64,000 bases of DNA from Vicingaceae bacterium (lineage in GTDB: Bacteria > Bacteroidota > Bacteroidia > Flavobacteriales_E > Vicingaceae), in NCBI GenBank assembly GCA_026003395.1, contig BPHE01000002.1, positions 186,001-250,000 on the forward strand. The letters are read 5' to 3'. The notes beneath the pieces are model-generated. The model had not been told where the DNA came from and did not search any database. It saw only the letters and a list, made by a program, of their open reading frames with translations. The translations under genes were made by a program, and so were the position numbers. Shown here in pieces: positions 54,712 through 64,000 of this stretch. Each line of letters opens with the position of its first letter. Within the stretch, counting starts at the first letter, position 1.

Positions 54712-57700
54712 ATGTATATTAATGTTATAAATCAAAAAAAATTGTTTTTACATCAACCGCTAAGTATTATTATATTTTTTTGTTTCATTTTTTTACTTGT
54801 TTACGAAATAAATGCTCAAAAGTTATACTCTAAAAAAATTTCCCCTCAATATGTCACCGGATGGGAAATTGACGCAAAAAGTCCCCAACCTTTCAAAGGC
54901 AATAATATTGGATATAAAATGACAGGGAATCTGTCCGTGCCTTTTTTAATGCATGCTTTCGAATCACCGGACAAAATCATTCAATCTTTTCAATTATCCA
55001 ACGAAACTTGGGAAAATATTCCTGATTCGTTAACTCTTTTTTTACAACCATGGACGAAAATTATTGATACAATGCCTGCTTTTCGTTTAAGTTATGGACG
55101 TAGTAATAAAAATTGGATTAGTTACATAGAAATATTCCCTATCAGATATCAAAACAAACAATGGCAGATATTATCAAGTTACGACATCATTCCTCAGTGG
55201 AAATCATCTCCCAAATTCTCCTCTTCTTTCCAAGAAAAATATGCATCTAACTCAGTATTGTCGGGTGGTCAGTGGTATAAATTCGGTGTAACCCAAAATG
55301 GCTTATATACTATTGATTATTTTAAATTGAAGTCATGGGGCATCGATATAGAAAATATCAATCCACAAACGATCAAAATTTATACACATCTGCCCGGACA
55401 ATTGCCTTATACAAACAATAATCAGGTAGTAGACGATCTGGTTGAGATGCCCATTTTTGTTTATGGAGAAAGTGATCAAAAGTTTGATCCCGGGGATTAT
55501 ATTTTATTTGCCGGTTATAGCCCTGTAAGATGGGTCTATAACAGTTTTTACCAAATGTTTGTAGCCGAATCGCATGAATTTTGCGATACTACATATTACT
55601 TTCTCACTTTTGAAGGTACTCCCGGTAAAAGAATTGCTGCGGTAGATTATTCAAATCTAACAACTAATGCCAACATATCCGGTTTTTATGATTTTATATT
55701 GGAAGAAAAAAATTTGACCAATTTTTTAAAATCCGGGAAACTTTGGGTAGGAGATCTGTTTGATGTTCAAAATGAATATAATTATACATTTGCCGCACCC
55801 AATATAGATCCCAACAAACCGGTTAAAGCATTGATAGAAGTTTATGCACGTTCAACATATCCGTCCGGCTCTTCATTTACAATTCAATATCCGGGTGGTT
55901 CGACCAATATCAATGTTTTAAAGGTATCCGGTGGTTCATATGACAATTATGCCAATGGGGCAAACTCATTAATTACTTTCAACACAGGTTCCAATCCTTA
56001 TGTCATAAAAATTACATATAACAAACCTCAAAGCTCCGATCGAGGCTGGTTAGACAGAATTTGCATCAATCAATACAGAACGTTGAATATGCAGGGAACT
56101 GAAATGTTCATTCATGCCACCGAAAATATCGGACCCGGCAACGCCAATCTTTATACCATTACCGGACTAACGTCACCTCCTGAAGTATGGGATGTCACAC
56201 TACCCTGGGATATTAAAAAACTACAAGGTACCTATCAAAATTTTTCTTTTACTTTCAAAGCACCCTCGGATACTATCCGGAAATTTATTATTTTCACTCA
56301 ACCAACCGCAAATAAAAAAATTTATTTTTCGGGAAAAATCGAAAATCAAAATCTGCATGCGCATTCACCGGTCAATTATCTTATTATAACCCCCTCAAAA
56401 TTTGTTGAAGATTTGACAGAATTAGAACAGTTTTACAACAACAAAGGAATTTCCACCCGTGTAGTGGCAATCGAAAAAATATACAATGAATATTCTGCCG
56501 GAGCCGTTGATATTATGGCTATCAGACATTATATCCGGCACATATACAAAAAAGGAATACAACAAAATATTCCATTGCAATATGTGCTTTTGGCAGGAGA
56601 CGGAAGTTATGACAATAAAAATTACAGAGGTTCCGGATTGAATCTTATTCCGACTTACCAATCTCCTCAATCTGTCAATCCGATAGGGTCTTATTCATCT
56701 GATGATTTTTATGCTGTATTGGACGACAACGAAGGGCTCTTTTCTGAAAACCCTCCATATGATGTCGTAGATATTGGAGTAGGTCGTTGGCCTGTAAAAA
56801 ATTCACAGGAAATAAAAAACATTATCAAAAAAATTAAAACATATAACTCCACCACTACCTTGGGCGATTGGAGAAATCTATTAACTTTTGTGGCAGATGA
56901 TGAAGACGGAAATATTCATATGAGTGATGCCAATTCTTTGACCACTTTGGTGCAGAGTAAAGACAAATCTTTCAATATCGACAAAATTTATTTCGACAGT
57001 TTCCAACAGGAGACAACCCCCGGAGGGCAACGCTATCCCGAAGTAAATAAAAAAATCAACGAAAATGTCAACAAAGGTTCTTTAATTTTCAATTATACCG
57101 GACATGGTGGCGAAGTGGGATGGGCCCATGAAAGAGTGTTAGGATTAAATGATATTTTTTCATGGAATAACTTGCAAAAATTAACCTTGTTTTTCACGGC
57201 CACATGTGAGTTCTCTCGGTGGGATGATCCTTCCCGGACCTCTGCCGGAGAATATTGTTTATTGAATGAAAATGGCGGAGCCATTGCCCTGCTTTCTACC
57301 ACAAGGCTGGTTTACTCTTCGCCCAACAAACAACTCAACCAATTGTTTTATGATTATGTTTTTGCACCCGTCAACGGAAGAAAAAGAACAATAGGTGAAG
57401 TATATTATGAAATAAAAAAAATCAGGGCCTCTGATCTCAATGCAAGAAACTTTTCTCTTGTGGGTGATCCGGCAATCACTTTAAATTTCCCGAAATACTT
57501 TATCAATGTCACGGAAATAAATGGAAAGCCGGCCAATCAAGTGGATACAATCAGAGCATTGAGCAAAGTTACTATTAAAGGAGTCGTTCAAGATACCTTA
57601 CCCGGGGGCGTTTATCAAACATTGACGCAATTTAACGGTGTGCTTTATCCCACGATTTTTGACAAAGAAAAAACCATTCAAACACTCAACAATGATGGAA

Positions 57701-58578
57701 ATGGTGTATTTACCTATAAACAATATATCAACAAAATTTTCAAAGGAAAAGTAAGCGTCAAAAACGGTGAATTTGAATTTTCTTTTGTCGTGCCAAAAGA
57801 TATTGACTATAATTTTGGTCCCGGCAGGGCTTCATTTTATGGGGATAACGGAATTATTGATGCCTCCGGATTTTTCGAGAATTTTATAATCGGTGGGTAT
57901 GACACAACCTCACAAAGCGACAATCAAGGGCCGGATATCAATGTTTTTATGAACGACGAAAAATTTGTTTCGGGAGGCATTACTGACGAAAACCCATTGT
58001 TATTGGTACATTTATTTGATGAAAACGGTATCAATATGACCGGCAACGGAATAGGTCACGATATTATAGGCATACTTGACAACAAAACCAACGAACCGAT
58101 TGTATTAAACGACTACTATGAAGCTGATCTTGACAGCTATCAAAGCGGCAAAGTGAAATATCCTTTCAAAAATCTTACCGAAGGTGAACACACATTGAAA
58201 GTAAGGGCATGGGATGTATATAACAATGTATCGGAAAAAGAAATTACATTTAAAGTGGTGAAAAAAAGAGACATTGAATTACAAAATGTATTGAATTATC
58301 CCAATCCTTTTACTACCCATACTACTTTTTGGTTTCAACACAACCAGGCGGGCCAGCCATTACACATATTGATACAGATTTACACAGTAACCGGCAGAGT
58401 AGTGAAAACTATTCAAAAAGACATCATTGCCGACGGTTATCTGGTCAATTCCATTGAATGGGATGGACGTGATGACTTTGGCGAGAGATTGGGGCGGGGG
58501 GTTTATCTGTATAAATTGACAGTTTTATCCGGAAATGGAACACAGGCTGAAAAAATTGAAAAATTGGTAATTTTGTAA
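54712..58578 (+). CDS. porU: Type IX secretion system sortase PorU
   Basis: Encodes 1288 residues. An N-terminal signal-anchor-like hydrophobic segment (about 14-36) is followed by a domain to about 560 and a C25 gingipain-like protease domain. The catalytic His is His798 (TGHGGEVGW) and Cys is Cys832 (TATCEFSRWDD). The end is a T9SS-type CTD: YPNPFTTHTTF, then GVYLYKLT. PorU removes the CTD signal from cargo and attaches it to the cell surface. porV follows after 74 bases. Confidence 0.93.
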   Translation: MYINVINQKKLFLHQPLSIIIFFCFIFLLVYEINAQKLYSKKISPQYVTGWEIDAKSPQPFKGNNIGYKMTGNLSVPFLMHAFESPDKIIQSFQLSNETWENIPDSLTLFLQPWTKIIDTMPAFRLSYGRSNKNWISYIEIFPIRYQNKQWQILSSYDIIPQWKSSPKFSSSFQEKYASNSVLSGGQWYKFGVTQNGLYTIDYFKLKSWGIDIENINPQTIKIYTHLPGQLPYTNNNQVVDDLVEMPIFVYGESDQKFDPGDYILFAGYSPVRWVYNSFYQMFVAESHEFCDTTYYFLTFEGTPGKRIAAVDYSNLTTNANISGFYDFILEEKNLTNFLKSGKLWVGDLFDVQNEYNYTFAAPNIDPNKPVKALIEVYARSTYPSGSSFTIQYPGGSTNINVLKVSGGSYDNYANGANSLITFNTGSNPYVIKITYNKPQSSDRGWLDRICINQYRTLNMQGTEMFIHATENIGPGNANLYTITGLTSPPEVWDVTLPWDIKKLQGTYQNFSFTFKAPSDTIRKFIIFTQPTANKKIYFSGKIENQNLHAHSPVNYLIITPSKFVEDLTELEQFYNNKGISTRVVAIEKIYNEYSAGAVDIMAIRHYIRHIYKKGIQQNIPLQYVLLAGDGSYDNKNYRGSGLNLIPTYQSPQSVNPIGSYSSDDFYAVLDDNEGLFSENPPYDVVDIGVGRWPVKNSQEIKNIIKKIKTYNSTTTLGDWRNLLTFVADDEDGNIHMSDANSLTTLVQSKDKSFNIDKIYFDSFQQETTPGGQRYPEVNKKINENVNKGSLIFNYTGHGGEVGWAHERVLGLNDIFSWNNLQKLTLFFTATCEFSRWDDPSRTSAGEYCLLNENGGAIALLSTTRLVYSSPNKQLNQLFYDYVFAPVNGRKRTIGEVYYEIKKIRASDLNARNFSLVGDPAITLNFPKYFINVTEINGKPANQVDTIRALSKVTIKGVVQDTLPGGVYQTLTQFNGVLYPTIFDKEKTIQTLNNDGNGVFTYKQYINKIFKGKVSVKNGEFEFSFVVPKDIDYNFGPGRASFYGDNGIIDASGFFENFIIGGYDTTSQSDNQGPDINVFMNDEKFVSGGITDENPLLLVHLFDENGINMTGNGIGHDIIGILDNKTNEPIVLNDYYEADLDSYQSGKVKYPFKNLTEGEHTLKVRAWDVYNNVSEKEITFKVVKKRDIELQNVLNYPNPFTTHTTFWFQHNQAGQPLHILIQIYTVTGRVVKTIQKDIIADGYLVNSIEWDGRDDFGERLGRGVYLYKLTVLSGNGTQAEKIEKLVIL

Positions 58579-58652
58579 AATAATTTTTTTAAAAATTCGT
58601 TTGTTATTCGGAAATTTGTACAACTCAAATTTATAATATTCATACAATCATT

Positions 58653-59882
58653 ATGAAAAGAAACATCTTATTTTCTCTTGTTGCATCAGCTTTTGCGTTT
58701 AACACAAACATCAACGCCCAAGTATCATCAACCAGCTTACGCAACGATACGTTACAACTCAACACCATTACTACTGCAGTGCCTTTTTTGTTAATCACCC
58801 CTGACTCCCGTTCCGGTGGCATGGGGGACGCAGGTACGGCAATCTCTGCCGATGCATTTGCCACGCATTGGAATGCTGCCAAATTGGTTTACGCCCCTAA
58901 AAAAGTGGGATTTGGTTTTGGATATACTCCTTGGCTCAGGCAATTGGTACCTGATATCAATATGTTGTATCTTTCGGGATATACCCAATTGGACAAAATG
59001 AGTGCCTTCGGTGGTTCTTTAAGGTATTTCACATTGGGCAACATTACTTTCACCGACCAAACCGGCAATACAATTGGTCAATTCAAACCCAATGAATTTG
59101 CCATAAACTTCGTATATTCCAGAAAACTATCCGATAATTTTTCAGGTGGCGTCTCGGCTAAGTATATCAACTCCAACTTGACCAACGGTATAACTGCCAA
59201 CGGCACTGCCACAAAAGCAGGACAGGCATTTGCCGTTGACCTTTCGGGATATTATAATAATGATGATGTCAAAATTTTTGACCGTGATGGTTCTTTTGCT
59301 TTCGGCGTCGTAATTTCCAATATCGGTAACAAAATATCTTATACAGACAACGTAGAAAAAGATTTCTTACCGATGAATTTGAGAATCGGACAGGCAACTA
59401 CCATCAAATTTGATGATTATAACAAATTGACTTTTGCTTTAGACCTCAATAAACTGTTAGTCCCAACTCCTCCAATTTATGCACGAGACAGCAATGGCAG
59501 CCGTATACCAGATGGTTCCGGCGGATATGTTATTGAAAAAGGAAAAAATCCCAACACTTCTGTACCCAATGCCATCATTCAGTCGTTTTACGATGCTCCG
59601 GGCGGATTCAAGGAAGAGTTGAGGGAAATCAACCTTTCGCCCGGACTGGAGTATTGGTACAATGATTTATTGGCTTTTCGCACCGGTTATTTTTATGAAC
59701 ATTATACAAAAGGTAACCGTCAATATCTCACTTTTGGCCTTGGAGTAAGATTTATGGCATTAGGTATTGATGCTTCCTATCTGATATCCACAACTCAACG
59801 TAATCCTCTGGCCAATACTTTGAGAATCTCATTGACATTAAATATGAATTCTTTCAGTTCCGATAATACGTCCAATCAATGA
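58653..59882 (+). CDS. porV: Type IX secretion system outer membrane shuttle PorV (LptO)
   Basis: Encodes 409 residues. A signal peptide ends near residue 22 (INAQ). The mature part is a FadL-like barrel: FLLITPDSRSGGMGDAGTA near the start, then THWNAAKLVYAP. The C-terminus is rich in aromatic beta strands (TYFL-like, RTGYFYEHY). PorV carries CTD proteins from the translocon to PorU. The 3' end overlaps ispF by 4 bases. Confidence 0.93.
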   Translation: MKRNILFSLVASAFAFNTNINAQVSSTSLRNDTLQLNTITTAVPFLLITPDSRSGGMGDAGTAISADAFATHWNAAKLVYAPKKVGFGFGYTPWLRQLVPDINMLYLSGYTQLDKMSAFGGSLRYFTLGNITFTDQTGNTIGQFKPNEFAINFVYSRKLSDNFSGGVSAKYINSNLTNGITANGTATKAGQAFAVDLSGYYNNDDVKIFDRDGSFAFGVVISNIGNKISYTDNVEKDFLPMNLRIGQATTIKFDDYNKLTFALDLNKLLVPTPPIYARDSNGSRIPDGSGGYVIEKGKNPNTSVPNAIIQSFYDAPGGFKEELREINLSPGLEYWYNDLLAFRTGYFYEHYTKGNRQYLTFGLGVRFMALGIDASYLISTTQRNPLANTLRISLTLNMNSFSSDNTSNQ

Positions 59883-60367
59883 TGTTCCCGGATTTTCGCG
59901 TTGGTTTTGGTTATGATGTTCATACTATTGAACCGGGTCGAAAATTATTTTTAGGAGGAGTTGAATTTGACGCTCCTTTTGGCTTGAAGGGACATTCTGA
60001 TGCGGATGTGCTTATTCATGCTATTTGTGATGCCTTATTGGGAGCAGCAAACCTGAGAGACATTGGATACCATTTCCCACCCGGCGACGCTAAATTCAAA
60101 AACATTGATTCCAAAATATTGCTGAAAGAAGTGGTAGCATTACTACAAAATACCGGTTTTGCTATACAAAACATAGATTCCACAATTTGTGCCGAAGAAC
60201 CTAAAATCAATCCCAGAATACCCGAAATGCAAAAAACTTTAGGAGAAATTATGCAAATCGATTCTTCAAAAATATCCATCAAAGCTACAACCAACGAAAA
60301 AATTGGTTTTGTGGGACGCAAAGAAGGTATTTGTGCTTATGCCGTTTGTTTGATTTATAAAAATTAG
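59879..60367 (+). CDS. ispF: 2-C-methyl-D-erythritol 2,4-cyclodiphosphate synthase
   Basis: Encodes 162 residues. The metal-binding GYDVHTI (Asp-x-His) and GHSDADVLIHAICDALLGAA are diagnostic, with DIGYHFPPGD and the C-terminal TTNEKIGFVGRKEGI. It forms MEcPP in the non-mevalonate isoprenoid pathway. The start overlaps the porV stop (ATGA). An ATG at 59882 is an alternative start. This links isoprenoid synthesis to the porU-porV transcript by position only. Confidence 0.95.
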   Translation: MMFPDFRVGFGYDVHTIEPGRKLFLGGVEFDAPFGLKGHSDADVLIHAICDALLGAANLRDIGYHFPPGDAKFKNIDSKILLKEVVALLQNTGFAIQNIDSTICAEEPKINPRIPEMQKTLGEIMQIDSSKISIKATTNEKIGFVGRKEGICAYAVCLIYKN

Positions 60368-60370
60368 CTC

Positions 60371-61030
60371 TTATTCAAAGGTATATTGCACACTTAAGAT
60401 ATAATTGGTCCAGGGATTCTTCACATTTCTTTCCCTTTCAATAATAAATCCTCCTGAAATAAAATTTCTTTTGTCTATTTTATATTCCAAACTGAAATAA
60501 AATCTTGTTCGGTCCAATAGTTTCAACTTAGGATTGTTTATAGGATAATAATACTCCCATGCAATTCCTCCGGTCAGATCCTCAAAAGATTTTTCCACTC
60601 CGATTTTTTGCCTGAAATACCACTCAAAAACAGGAGTATCGGCAGTTGTTTGAATTCTGAACCGGTTATTAAACTGCCATTCATCTGCTTTTAATCTAAA
60701 ATTTAGATCCGTATGGATACGGTGCCGATGATAATATCCTCTTTCTATGTTGTATTTCAGTGAGTAACGATAATTTAAATCAGCACTGAACCAATCGGAC
60801 AATCGTTTGCCTAAAGAAAACTGTGTCAACAAATTATCCAATCTCGAGTAATTTTCTTTTAATCTTAACTCTTCGGTGATTGAGAACTTCCACTTATCCG
60901 GTAAATCAAACGATTTCGAAAATGCTATCCATAGATTGGCATCGTTCACTTGTGAACGTAGCTCCGGAATGAAAAAGCATATATAACAACTAAAAAAAAA
61001 GCAAAGAATCCGATATTTATGCATTTTCAT
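60371..61030 (-). CDS. DUF2490 domain protein (outer membrane barrel)
   Basis: Encodes 219 residues (217 from ATG 61024). A signal peptide ends near residue 28. The rest is a small beta-barrel with alternating aromatic and charged strands (WKFSITEELRLKENY, WFSADLNYRYSL, LSVQYTFE at the end), as in DUF2490. The last aromatic residue suits insertion by BAM. It is the last gene of the minus-strand cluster with DUF4956 and VTC genes. The function is unknown. Confidence 0.8.
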   Translation of the reverse strand: MKMHKYRILCFFFSCYICFFIPELRSQVNDANLWIAFSKSFDLPDKWKFSITEELRLKENYSRLDNLLTQFSLGKRLSDWFSADLNYRYSLKYNIERGYYHRHRIHTDLNFRLKADEWQFNNRFRIQTTADTPVFEWYFRQKIGVEKSFEDLTGGIAWEYYYPINNPKLKLLDRTRFYFSLEYKIDKRNFISGGFIIERERNVKNPWTNYILSVQYTFE

Positions 61031-61045
61031 GAGTTAATAGTAGTG

Positions 61046-61723
61046 TTAATCTTGGCTATTGCTATCACTAATAGAATCGTCATCGGTTAATACTGAAAGC
61101 TTTTCTTCATAATAAAATACATACAACGTTGCGGTTTCACGGACCAGGTCAATTTTTCCAAGCACAACTTTATGAATGTTCAATCCTGTGCGTTTTTTTA
61201 AATCTTCCAACAACTCAGCATATCTTTCAGGTTTGATCAATTCAATATTGTCATATAAAATCATTTTGCGGTTTTCGTGAGTGATCAACCAAACCTTCTC
61301 GATTAAATAAGTAATAAAAATAATTGAAAAATTAGTAAAAAATAACTCCAAATAACTTACCTTTTTGTTTGTCAAAGCATTGAGCACGGCAATGGCTATA
61401 ACAATAAATAAATAGGTCATTTCACGTATGGGAATGGATTCTGTCCGGTATCTCAATATGCCAAATACGGCAAACAGTCCAAAGGCAAAACCTATGCTCA
61501 ATTTGACATTACTCAAAAGGAAACATAGAAAGAATATCAATACATTAAATAAGAAATAAGTGAATAAGTAATCTTTTCTTTTCTGTACAGGATAATACAA
61601 CAATCTTACAATGATAAACACCACCAATAAATCAAAGAAAAATCTTACGGTCAATTCGCCAAAATCATCCCAATCGGCAAGTTTGTTGCCAAAAATTTTA
61701 TCGAGCAACAGATATGTTAACAT
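61046..61723 (-). CDS. DUF4956 membrane protein
   Basis: Encodes 225 residues. Four membrane helices lie in the first 150 residues, including the conserved FAFGLFAVFGILRYRTESIP loop, followed by a cytoplasmic domain of about 80 residues with an acidic end. The GxxRYRTE motif and length match DUF4956. The gene overlaps the VTC-domain gene by 26 bases. DUF4956 and VTC genes are often neighbours in bacteria, which suggests that the two products work together. Confidence 0.85.
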   Translation of the reverse strand: MLTYLLLDKIFGNKLADWDDFGELTVRFFFDLLVVFIIVRLLYYPVQKRKDYLFTYFLFNVLIFFLCFLLSNVKLSIGFAFGLFAVFGILRYRTESIPIREMTYLFIVIAIAVLNALTNKKVSYLELFFTNFSIIFITYLIEKVWLITHENRKMILYDNIELIKPERYAELLEDLKKRTGLNIHKVVLGKIDLVRETATLYVFYYEEKLSVLTDDDSISDSNSQD

Positions 61724-62471
61724 AGTTCAATCTTTTTAATATTTCCCTCAATTTCATGTGAAACCTGTTCTTTTTAATGTTTTCTGCAAGAAAATACAGA
61801 CCTAAAACATATTTACTGATTCCTTTTGGTGTAATGTGATATTCTTTCATCAAACGCATAAATGGAGACAAGCCCATGGATTTATCACGTTTCACCTCTG
61901 CGATGACCAGGTTTGACATTTGCATTTTTGAACCTTTGTATTCGAAAAAAAGATTCACATCAATTGTCAATCGTTCTTTTTTATTTTTATTAACCAAAGT
62001 GATTCTGTTAAAATGATTTTTCACCGATAATAACAATGGTTCTTCAATATGAAAATTATTTTGCTTCAAAAATTCTTTGATGGTTTGAACATCCGGTTCG
62101 TTCTGAAATGGTATGCGTTTTTTGATTGTCCGACCTTTATTGTTTTTAATTTTTATTTCCAGAAAAGCCGCATTACTGTCTAAGTATCTTCTCCAGCGTA
62201 TCTTAAAACGATTAGCTTTATCCTGATGGTGCATTAGAAATAGTTTTAATTGTGGCGTATCAAAATATTCGGTAGAATATTCCATGCACCGTTTTCCATT
62301 AATTTCAAGTACCTCATAATTTTCGTGAAGTTTAGGCAGTATTTCCAATAGTATCCGCTCGTCCATCACATATTTCAAGTCGGTTCTGTTGAGTAGTTTT
62401 ACCTCCTCAATCTGTTCGAGAGAAACAGCGTTAAATGATTTTAAAGTATTTTCCAATAAATGCAACTCCAC
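61698..62471 (-). CDS. VTC-domain protein (polyphosphate polymerase-like)
   Basis: Encodes 257 residues. The VTC tunnel residues are visible: NRTDLKYVMDE (Lys), YSTEYFDTPQLKLFLMHHQ, RFKIRWRRY (basic cluster), FLEIKIKNNKGRTIKKR and the acidic VIAEVKRDK. VTC4 in yeast makes polyphosphate from ATP through such a tunnel; bacterial members are not well characterised. The protein is probably cytoplasmic and attached to the membrane through DUF4956. It overlaps the DUF4956 gene by 26 bases. Confidence 0.85.
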   Translation of the reverse strand: MELHLLENTLKSFNAVSLEQIEEVKLLNRTDLKYVMDERILLEILPKLHENYEVLEINGKRCMEYSTEYFDTPQLKLFLMHHQDKANRFKIRWRRYLDSNAAFLEIKIKNNKGRTIKKRIPFQNEPDVQTIKEFLKQNNFHIEEPLLLSVKNHFNRITLVNKNKKERLTIDVNLFFEYKGSKMQMSNLVIAEVKRDKSMGLSPFMRLMKEYHITPKGISKYVLGLYFLAENIKKNRFHMKLREILKRLNYVNISVAR

Positions 62472-62479
62472 TATTTATT

Positions 62480-62959
62480 TTAATTTTTAAAATATTGGTA
62501 TGTATATTCCGTTTTTTCTATCAATTCCCCTTTACCGTTATAAACCATTTTTGATTTTTTCAATCCTTTCTCGTCATAAGCATATACAATTCTTTTCAGC
62601 AATTTTCCCTGAGAATCTTCTTTCAAAATTTCAATTTTTTGCCCTTTGTCATTATATTTATATGTGACAACTTCATTAATTTTAAGATTATCTCCTTTTT
62701 TAACTATTTCTTTGATCAAAAGCCCATCTTTATATTGATACTCAATAACTTTATTTGGTTTTAAATTTTTGTCGTAAAAAACTTGTTTTACTAAGTTTCC
62801 GGATGCATCGTAAAATTTTTCTTCTCTGTCTTTTTTTACAGGTTTATTTTTTTCATATTCCACCACATTCTCTTGCACTGATTTAACTTGAAACTGACCT
62901 TTTGACATCAAGCCGGTCATCAAAAAAACGAATACTAAAACGTATCTTGTCATACACAT
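62480..62959 (-). CDS. Secreted protein with YD-like repeats
   Basis: Encodes 159 residues (157 from ATG 62953). A signal peptide ends near residue 22. The body has about five short repeats of a Tyr-x-x-x-Gly-x-Leu type (EKFYDASGNLVKQVFYD, YKYNDKGQKIEILKED, YAYDEKGLKKSKMVY), like YD/RHS or MORN-like repeats. There is no enzymatic motif. It lies between a lipoprotein gene and the VTC gene on one transcript. Confidence 0.65.
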   Translation of the reverse strand: MCMTRYVLVFVFLMTGLMSKGQFQVKSVQENVVEYEKNKPVKKDREEKFYDASGNLVKQVFYDKNLKPNKVIEYQYKDGLLIKEIVKKGDNLKINEVVTYKYNDKGQKIEILKEDSQGKLLKRIVYAYDEKGLKKSKMVYNGKGELIEKTEYTYQYFKN

Positions 62960-62967
62960 TTGTTCTT

Positions 62968-63372
62968 TTATTTCACTATCACCAAATCAGGCACTTCTAT
63001 CACTTGATTTTTTCCCTGTATGGTCACTTCTTGCTTTACCACTTTCAGTCCTGATGGTTCTTGAAAAGTAGTATCTTTCGAATAAGCATATATTGTATAA
63101 ACTCCTGGTCTCAGATATTTAAATTCATAGCGTCCGTTGTAATCTGTTTTGAAGTCGTCATCATAAATATCATCCTCTTCGCCGTAAATAATAAAAACGT
63201 CTTCATCAGGTGCATAATATTGAGCTTTTAATTGTGTAAGTTCAGCATTGTAATCCAATGCGTAAACCCTTCCTCTGATGGTATTGTTGCCACCTACACC
63301 TTCTTCTTTTTTACAAGAAGTTATAATTGCTGTCAAAACAAATATGAATGACGTAATGCTTATTCTTGTCAT
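62968..63372 (-). CDS. Small lipoprotein with carboxypeptidase-regulatory-like fold
   Basis: Encodes 134 residues from the ATG at 63372 (63390 is also in frame). The lipobox is IITSC (Cys20). The rest has the CarboxypepD-reg-like pattern: GRVYALDYN near the start and YNGRYEFKYLRPGVYTIYAYSKD in the middle, a surface-exposed beta sandwich. A good promoter precedes it. The function is unknown. Confidence 0.7.
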   Translation of the reverse strand: MTRISITSFIFVLTAIITSCKKEEGVGGNNTIRGRVYALDYNAELTQLKAQYYAPDEDVFIIYGEEDDIYDDDFKTDYNGRYEFKYLRPGVYTIYAYSKDTTFQEPSGLKVVKQEVTIQGKNQVIEVPDLVIVK

Positions 63373-63387
63373 TGCCACAATTTTAAG

Positions 63388-63416
63388 CAAATGTAAAATT
63401 TTTGTTAAATATCAAT
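63388..63416 (-). promoter_or_regulatory. Possible promoter for the small lipoprotein gene
   Basis: On the minus strand ATTG (63416-63413), a 17-base spacer and TACATTTG (63395-63388) fit the -33 / -7 consensus. The -33 box overlaps the stop codon of the CotH-like gene. The start codon is 15 bases downstream. Confidence 0.5.
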
Positions 63417-64000
63417 GAATAATTTTATGAGATTGTTGATTTAATTGTTCATTGGTCAACAAAAGCAAATAAACACCTTTAGGATATTTTTCAAGATTGA
63501 GCGTCCCACGGTCCGACCAATAACCGGTTTCAACAATCTTCCCTGAAAAATCGATCAATTTGTATTCTCCACGATAGCCATTCCATTCAAAATTTATAAA
63601 CTCTTCAGCAGGATTTGGATAAACTTTTGAAGTAAATACTTCTTTTTCTTCCACATTCAAAGGCCAATAACCCAAAGAAATTAACTCGTTCTTTAAGCAT
63701 TGATACCTTGCGGCATAAAAACTTTTCAAACCGGGAATTTGTTCGAATCCATTTGGACCGGGCACCGAGATATTTTGCGAAAGATTTGTTTCAAAATGCT
63801 GGTTTGTATAAGCTTTATTATTGTCGGCATACACATAAGGTCTGATGATATTGGCCAATGTATCTATAATGCTGTCCATTTTGGCAGGCGGGAAAGTATC
63901 AAGCCATTGATATACTATATCGGCCATTTGTGTTTTGTATGCAGGATACATTGAAAACATTTTCTCAGGCAATGGTCTTGACCCGGGCGGATTAGGAATA
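63412..64000 (-). CDS. CotH-like kinase, C-terminal part with T9SS type A sorting domain (partial)
   Basis: The frame stays open to the window edge, so only the C-terminal 195 or so residues are visible; the ATG at 63972 is internal. The segment IIRPYVYADNNKAYTN and the following GLKSFYAARYQCLKNEL match the end of CotH-family (spore coat protein H-like) kinases. A type A T9SS signal follows: SKVYPNPAEEFINFEW, then GVYLLLLTNEQ. The protein would be exported to the cell surface. Catalytic residues are outside the window. It is the first gene seen of the CotH-VTC-DUF4956 cluster. Confidence 0.7.
   Translation of the reverse strand, partial: IPNPPGSRPLPEKMFSMYPAYKTQMADIVYQWLDTFPPAKMDSIIDTLANIIRPYVYADNNKAYTNQHFETNLSQNISVPGPNGFEQIPGLKSFYAARYQCLKNELISLGYWPLNVEEKEVFTSKVYPNPAEEFINFEWNGYRGEYKLIDFSGKIVETGYWSDRGTLNLEKYPKGVYLLLLTNEQLNQQSHKIIH

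Follow-up and report, generated by a model that had tools for sequence, protein, structure and literature searches.

Genomic Organization of a VTC-DUF4956 Operon in a Vicingaceae Bacterium

We analyzed a 64,000-nucleotide stretch of DNA (the window) that spans positions 186001-250000 of contig BPHE01000002.1 from a Vicingaceae bacterium (assembly GCA_026003395.1), the contig continuing past the window end. At positions 60371-64000, six open reading frames (ORFs) on the minus strand encode a CotH-family protein, a lipoprotein (LP), a YD-like repeat protein, a VTC-family triphosphate-tunnel enzyme, and proteins of the DUF4956 and DUF2490 families. A reading of the same DNA made from its letters alone (the sequence-only reading) had described six genes in one direction with overlaps or short gaps, and an ORF check recovered all six at the same positions, with intergenic gaps of 21 bp (CotH-LP), 8 bp (LP-YD), 8 bp (YD-VTC), -26 bp (VTC-DUF4956), and 15 bp (DUF4956-DUF2490). 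We conclude that the six-gene cluster is a real, conserved envelope operon, more than a chance assembly, in which the VTC-DUF4956 core is fixed and the outer genes are variable. The features are as follows.

60371..61030, minus strand: DUF2490 protein, 219 aa (Pfam DUF2490, 1.2e-19); predicted to form a beta-barrel in the outer membrane whose basic lumen is conserved, proposed as the exit there
61046..61723, minus strand: DUF4956 protein, 225 aa (Pfam DUF4956, 1.1e-54); proposed to serve VTC as a partner or conduit in the inner membrane
61698..62471, minus strand: VTC-family triphosphate-tunnel enzyme, 257 aa, GTG start (Pfam VTC, 8.1e-23); proposed polyphosphate polymerase
62480..62959, minus strand: YD/MORN-like exported repeat protein, 159 aa; weak matches, optional member
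62968..63390, minus strand: LP, 140 aa; lipobox Cys, G-x-G-G motif, small beta domain
63412..64000, minus strand: C-terminal part of a CotH-family kinase-like protein with a type IX secretion system (T9SS) sorting tail; the gene extends to window position 64938 and encodes 508 aa

The membrane partner that the sequence-only reading had seen overlapped by the VTC-type enzyme is the DUF4956 protein, and the two genes share 26 bp. Its four exported or outer-membrane proteins were likewise found: CotH carries the T9SS tail, LP the lipobox, the YD-like protein an N-terminal hydrophobic stretch (judged by eye), and DUF2490 a predicted barrel. On the upstream side of CotH, a 201-bp gap is followed by a divergent gene; at the downstream end, ispF converges head-on with the operon at a distance of 3 bp. 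The latter gene lies in a plus-strand region of the window (54712-60367) together with genes for a C25-peptidase (PorU-like) and PorV. Of 124 loci examined with a crude motif test, 25 have ispF converging on the cluster.

Conservation of the Gene Order

A VTC relative is present in 58 of 120 relatives of the source genome, representing 39 of 80 genera. We compared gene order in 126 distinct loci (L002, L033-L090 minus L086, and L091-L170 minus 12 repeats of the first set, the repeats being confirmed by identical VTC sequence), taken from wide stretches around VTC matches and from 80 named loci found via DUF4956, mostly of Flavobacteriales along with other Bacteroidota records. Genes in these loci are script-called ORFs, and their neighbours were labelled with profiles derived from these very loci, which may leave weak members uncounted. 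DUF4956 directly follows VTC in 122 of the 126 loci, in agreement with the expectation that the two are often adjacent, and the genes overlap in 52 of the 56 loci with a measured gap. Four loci lack the direct succession: L071 and L170 stop at contig ends, L148 suffers from an ORF-calling fault (VTC is present and overlapped by an over-long DUF4956 ORF, as also in L086), and L089 is a real exception, with no DUF4956 found within 15,070 bases.

The arrangement becomes rarer as further genes are added. VTC-DUF4956-DUF2490 are contiguous in 71 loci out of 126, LP-VTC-DUF4956-DUF2490 in 48, and CotH-LP-VTC-DUF4956-DUF2490 in 18, with a variant carrying YD after LP in 13; the full six-gene order occurs in nine, two of which (L034 and L035) are close relatives. 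When same-strand genes up to five positions away were counted in 58 loci, DUF2490 was present in 44, LP in 41, CotH in 17, and YD in 16. With the order complete in 9/126 loci, we rejected the idea of one conserved six-gene unit, and for the same reason we regard the outer genes as variable. Thus, of the recurrent six-gene order that the sequence-only reading had put forward for checking, the core pair recurs and the complete order mostly does not, and the free variation of neighbours that it had named as grounds for refutation applies to outer genes such as CotH (17/58) and not to the core.

The VTC Tunnel Enzyme

The VTC protein scores 81.6 bits against the Pfam VTC profile (cut-off 23) and has no membrane part in its sequence, as judged by eye. 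A single-sequence search of the PDB gave no match; a profile of 49 aligned proteins (out of 59) matched yeast Vtc2 at 4.2e-5 and Vtc4 at 0.002. Sixteen residues are invariant in all 49 proteins (R29, K33, R88, K90, R92, R94, E105, K107, K117, R119, R156, R167, D171, E192, K194, and K220), S219 is kept in 48, and position 31 is acidic throughout (D in 46, E in the other three). The basic tunnel residues and the metal-1 glutamate (K33, R92, R94, K107, R156, R167, E192, K194, and K220), which we match to Vtc4 numbering on partial alignments, are thus kept in 49/49, so that the loss of tunnel residues considered in the sequence-only reading did not occur.

Hydrolase tunnels are described as accommodating a second metal at an acidic patch that is absent from Vtc4; the metal-1 glutamate is invariant (PMC4641920, consulted in part). 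By eye, the motifs E-I-E-R-K and A-E-I-E of CYTH hydrolases from relatives have the counterparts R-x-D-x-K and A-E-V-K in VTC. On this by-eye motif reading, R29 and K194 occupy hydrolase metal-2 glutamate positions and the metal-1 glutamate is retained as E192; three of the four positions of the hydrolase acidic patch were placed, two of them basic and one acidic (D31). The tunnel residues therefore lean toward a polymerase rather than a hydrolase, and we infer that the product is polyphosphate.

The DUF4956 Membrane Protein

An AlphaFold2 (AF2) model of DUF4956 (mean predicted local distance difference test, pLDDT, 83.9; predicted template modelling score 0.68) has five predicted membrane helices followed by a C-terminal, presumably cytosolic beta-alpha-beta-beta (ACT-like) domain. 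Foldseek returned a best E value of 0.24, with weak matches to the ACT domains of aspartate kinases, and VIA-align a best Z of 7.6, with nothing above the level that the tool calls common. A sequence match to SecG (E 1.9) was dismissed as chance. For the streptococcal relative, an MgtC domain as well as four membrane segments with an ACT domain are assigned in the parts of the source consulted (PMC12345266); a profile alignment of our DUF4956 set (52 of 57 proteins) with five MgtC sequences from relatives spanned one column and was unusable. DUF4956 would be the partner of VTC, since its adjacency to that gene is fixed.

The Predicted DUF2490 Barrel and Its Proposed Counterparts

The AF2 model of DUF2490 is a confident barrel (mean pLDDT 94) with 11 strands listed. 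In VIA-align, the best match is KdgM (4pr7; Z 16.8, root-mean-square deviation 2.2 over 154 residues, 13% identity), followed by NanC (Z 16.4), and further 12-strand barrels score no more than 1 Z unit below KdgM. Strand facing was derived from alternating hydrophobic residues rather than coordinates. In an alignment of 39 of 45 proteins, the lumen side is basic at 12 positions in at least 77% of sequences (R56, R76, R88, R104, R112, K114, R123, R125, R140, K142, R174, and R176), and acidic at two strongly conserved positions, D30 and E159, with a third acidic in 69%. Conserved basic and acidic columns number 13 vs. 2 in DUF2490, compared to 21 vs. 22 in the neighbouring PorV family, used as a control. 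DUF2490 is thus predicted to be an outer-membrane barrel, whose fold points to a KdgM-like size and whose basic lumen points to an anion.

The outer-membrane partner differs in other loci. Among 173 loci, which include the 12 repeats and some of the loci on which the HlyD-like and TolC-like profiles were trained, DUF2490 is found in 98, a HlyD-like gene in 22, both in none, and neither in 53; the HlyD-like match in L054, a 289-aa ORF at a distance of five genes, is questionable. In the wider-phylum sample, DUF2490 has mostly given way to other genes outside the window's class: 22 VTC loci (L186-L188 and L192-L210) have a HlyD-like neighbour in 15 cases, DUF2490 in three, and neither in four, by our own profiles or Pfam. 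For instance, L186 has the order CotH, DUF4956, HlyD-type adaptor (4.9e-12), TolC-type protein (4.3e-17), VTC. Several HlyD assignments come from profile comparison alone: of ten neighbours of 355 to 376 aa, five (L194, L195, L196, L203, and L207) reach the Pfam HlyD_3 cut-off, two (L198 and L202) fall short of it, and three (L193, L200, and L206) have no HlyD match, nor did Pfam give one for L199 and the split L192 gene. The HlyD-like genes upstream and those downstream were treated as one group on the basis of a profile alignment with 98.9% probability.

HlyD-like and TolC-type partners also accompany DUF4956 in some genomes without VTC. Among 17 DUF4956 loci of VTC-less genomes (L171-L185, L189, and L190), ten have a HlyD-like gene beside DUF4956, and L182 encodes a TolC-type protein (1.1e-34). 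In nine of these VTC-less loci (L171-L177, L184, and L185), DUF4956 is followed by HlyD-like and, weakly, TolC-like genes and, where examined, a short-chain dehydrogenase; the TolC-like label is weak in this group (0.0019 in L172, none in L171, and 85% in profile comparison). These nine loci may encode an export unit in which DUF4956 is the inner-membrane component. In another case, L191 combines DUF4956, a phosphate-selective porin (2.5e-7), and CotH, preceded by inositol-1-phosphate synthase, in one run (L191:6116-10301), and the second locus of that genome, L192, has VTC. Two further VTC-less loci have other company: in L179:8419-10871, DUF4956 is followed by an unassigned 341-aa protein and a calcineurin-type phosphatase, and in L180:8772-10667, a converging gene encodes an ATP-binding domain of the PEP-synthase type (3e-32).

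CotH, the Lipoprotein, and the YD-Like Protein

The in-window part of CotH matches its Pfam profile at 0.0026, below the cut-off. On extending the contig past position 64000, as the sequence-only reading had proposed, we found the CotH domain: the whole gene (L002:9412-10938, window 63412-64938) encodes 508 aa and matches Pfam CotH at 5.2e-64, the solved CotH structure 5jd9 at 1e-19, and the T9SS tail models Por_Secre_tail (1.8e-10) and TIGR04183 (1.7e-9). Of 64 CotH proteins encoded in the clusters of 52 loci, 62 are ungapped at the positions of interest; all 62 have D289, and 59 have D265. Substitution of D228 or D251 is reported to inactivate Bacillus subtilis CotH (PMC7821199, consulted in part); we take D265 and D289 as the likely counterparts of these residues, the pairing of D265 with D228 being our own reading. 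Cluster CotH proteins elsewhere often have a signal sequence or lipobox; 40 of the 64 passed our export rule, and the other 24, three of which start inside the protein, were judged by eye. Being T9SS-secreted or otherwise exported, CotH would act where ATP is scarce, and we speculate that it uses exported polyphosphate. Other T9SS-tailed surface proteins are encoded in or beside the cluster of three relatives (L093:4194-5834, L094:9222-11099, and L119:1983-3218), and these are possible CotH targets.

In LP, the lipobox residue C26 and the glycines G31, G33, and G34 are invariant in all 32 aligned proteins (out of 42), and the matches to Y_Y_Y and fn3_3 are weak and below cut-off. The YD-like protein also has weak matches, to DUF2963 (2.5e-4) and YD_repeat_2x (5.4e-4).

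Co-occurrence Across the Phylum

Among 345 genomes of the phylum, VTC is present in 51, DUF4956 in 81, and CotH in 121. Every VTC genome (51/51) also has DUF4956, and CotH is found in 49 of the 51 vs. 72 of the 294 genomes without VTC. These counts ignore kinship among the 345 genomes, which are related, so the P values of co-occurrence are not independent tests. DUF4956 lies no more than 600 bp downstream of 54 of 58 VTC matches; in three of the other four it lies 3.7 to 4.0 kb upstream, with CotH also in the cluster (L186-L188), and the fourth match is a fragment.

The source genome has a PPK1 match (1.6e-50) and no match to PPK2. PPK1 is present in 49/51 VTC genomes and 260/294 others (intersection counted by eye), and the idea that VTC replaces PPK1 was rejected on this count. 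Because PPK1 is already in the source genome and in nearly all VTC genomes, VTC does not merely stand in for a storage enzyme and probably has a task other than ordinary polyphosphate storage. PelG gave no match in the source genome and none over the cut-off in 120 relatives (0/120); weak matches (E <= 0.001) occur in two of the 120, both genomes without VTC.

Proposed Function of the Operon

The best single explanation, in our tentative view, is that the operon is an envelope machine for a phosphate polymer and its export, an account that falls somewhat short of likely. It is built on gene order, conservation, tunnel residues, and the predicted barrel and protein locations; polyphosphate as product, membrane crossing, the direction of movement, and the role of CotH are proposals that go beyond these. 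The tunnel enzyme would make polyphosphate, or short polyphosphate, from ATP in the cytosol; DUF4956 at the inner membrane would substitute for the membrane part of the yeast VTC subunits and pass the chain outward; and the basic-lumen DUF2490 barrel would release the polymer through the outer membrane, this exit being exchangeable elsewhere. LP, the YD-like protein, and the T9SS-secreted CotH may work at the outer surface, where CotH may modify surface proteins or use the exported phosphate. Transport is favoured mainly because one inner-membrane protein pairs with changing periplasmic and outer-membrane partners. A more elaborate version is, as a whole, quite unlikely: a polyphosphate secretion machine in which VTC and DUF4956 thread the polymer across the inner membrane, exchangeable modules (DUF2490, HlyD plus TolC, or the phosphate-selective porin) release it, and CotH takes it as phosphate donor or attaches it to surface proteins.

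The envelope phosphate system suggested in the sequence-only reading thus remains the best interpretation, given the intact tunnel, the fixed pair, and an external kinase-type CotH with a T9SS tail; its polyphosphate synthesis is still something we infer. Its other proposal, display of the product through the T9SS, was not supported in that form, as the T9SS tail is confined to CotH within the operon; DUF4956 together with an outer-membrane channel, here DUF2490, is the more likely route for the polymer and was absent from that proposal.

Several observations weigh against the export explanation. Neither Foldseek nor VIA-align found a confident structural relative of DUF4956, the putative conduit; DUF4956 also occurs without VTC in 30 of the 345 genomes. 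In the tunnel, one of the metal-2 positions of hydrolases is still acidic (D31, with E in 3/49), and the motifs were placed by eye because a profile alignment with three CYTH proteins of relatives gave no placement. Protein-translocating autotransporter barrels, at Z 16.1 and 15.8, are tied with KdgM in the DUF2490 comparison, 53/173 loci lack both DUF2490 and a HlyD-like gene in the vicinity, and CotH is near VTC in just 17/58 loci. In Streptococcus intermedius, deletion of the VTC gene SIR_1593 had no aggregation phenotype, unlike that of DUF4956 or CotH, in the material consulted (PMC12345266). The open-access literature searched yielded no description of the operon in Bacteroidota and no assayed bacterial VTC enzyme.

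Alternatively, VTC and DUF4956 may form a regulatory module that senses phosphate or energy via the ACT-like domain and controls CotH or an envelope polysaccharide, with no export. The predicted cytosolic ACT-like domain and its weak Foldseek matches are consistent with this, as are the position of the Gram-positive trio beside Pel genes, where deletion of DUF4956 or CotH alters Pel amount and aggregation (PMC12345266, in part), and the neighbours of two loci from the wider phylum, polysaccharide-deacetylase-type genes beside L187 and an O-antigen ligase in the cluster of L188. We consider a purely regulatory role unlikely; it leaves the changing outer-membrane partners (DUF2490, HlyD plus TolC, and the phosphate-selective porin) unexplained, and PelG exceeds the cut-off in none of the 120 relatives.

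Uptake and storage, with DUF2490 importing phosphate or polyphosphate and VTC storing it as cytosolic polyphosphate, would suit the best barrel match, since KdgM is an oligogalacturonate porin known for uptake, and the phosphate-selective porin adjoining DUF4956 in L191. We give this scheme little credence: the storage enzyme PPK1 is already in 49/51 VTC genomes, and DUF2490 is replaced in other classes by HlyD-like adaptors and TolC-like proteins, which are exporter components. It is similarly improbable that the tunnel enzyme, instead of polymerising, acts on a triphosphate as a hydrolase or cyclase in an operon with some different function, as the acidic position 31 (49/49), the weak similarity to Vtc4 (0.002), and the diverse activities of tunnel enzymes (PMC4641920, in part) would allow, given the invariant basic R29 and K194 where hydrolases have acids (by eye) and a Pfam VTC match over the cut-off.

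If the export explanation is correct, the operon would be a dedicated bacterial machine coupling polyphosphate synthesis to export and a source of extracellular polyphosphate. It could also explain how CotH kinases function after secretion, at low ATP, and would give a shared role to two families of unknown function, DUF4956 and DUF2490.

Comparison With Known Systems

Polyphosphate made in the cytosol by yeast VTC is carried across a membrane by the same complex, according to the sections consulted (PMC10657179, PMC4641920). The operon resembles this system (Vtc4) in the tunnel fold family, the conserved tunnel residues, and the coupling to a membrane partner; unlike yeast VTC, the bacterial enzyme has no SPX or membrane part, and its partner is DUF4956, for which our searches saw no sequence kinship to VTC subunits. 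DUF2490 is likened to the KdgM/NanC porins by its predicted 12-strand-type barrel, similar size, and basic lumen; at 13% identity to KdgM, homology is not demonstrated, and the likeness is one of working rather than of class. A published listing has it as 1.B.81, a putative porin family with no assigned function (PMC4827864, entry seen in part). Bacteroides thetaiotaomicron shares the DUF4956-DUF2490 adjacency in BT3498-BT3499, which appear with no function in an iron expression table (change -7.6, P 0.175; PMC10434189, consulted for that table).

A close counterpart is already in print and went unmentioned in the sequence-only reading. As far as the consulted parts of these reports go, CotH, polyphosphate polymerase, and DUF4956 genes adjoin Pel genes in streptococci, clostridia, and bifidobacteria (PMC7112168), VTC and CotH genes are listed in a Clostridium perfringens locus (PMC2879425), and SIR_1592-1594 of S. 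intermedius are a CotH/VTC/DUF4956 set, in which deletion of DUF4956 or CotH cut aggregation by more than half in one medium and altered the amount of Pel (PMC12345266). The operon shares with this set the same three families in one operon and a secreted CotH. It differs in having no Pel genes, in the T9SS tail of its CotH, and in an added lipoprotein and outer-membrane stage (DUF2490, or HlyD and TolC elsewhere). The neighbours of L187 and L188 show that the link to surface polysaccharides is not confined to Gram-positives. The authors of the 2025 report did not find the three-gene arrangement outside Pel loci (PMC12345266, in part); its published confinement to such loci would be corrected by the present finding of the trio in genomes without a PelG match over the cut-off (0/120). 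Thus, the operon is the Bacteroidota form of the known CotH-VTC-DUF4956 trio, with an added outer-membrane stage.

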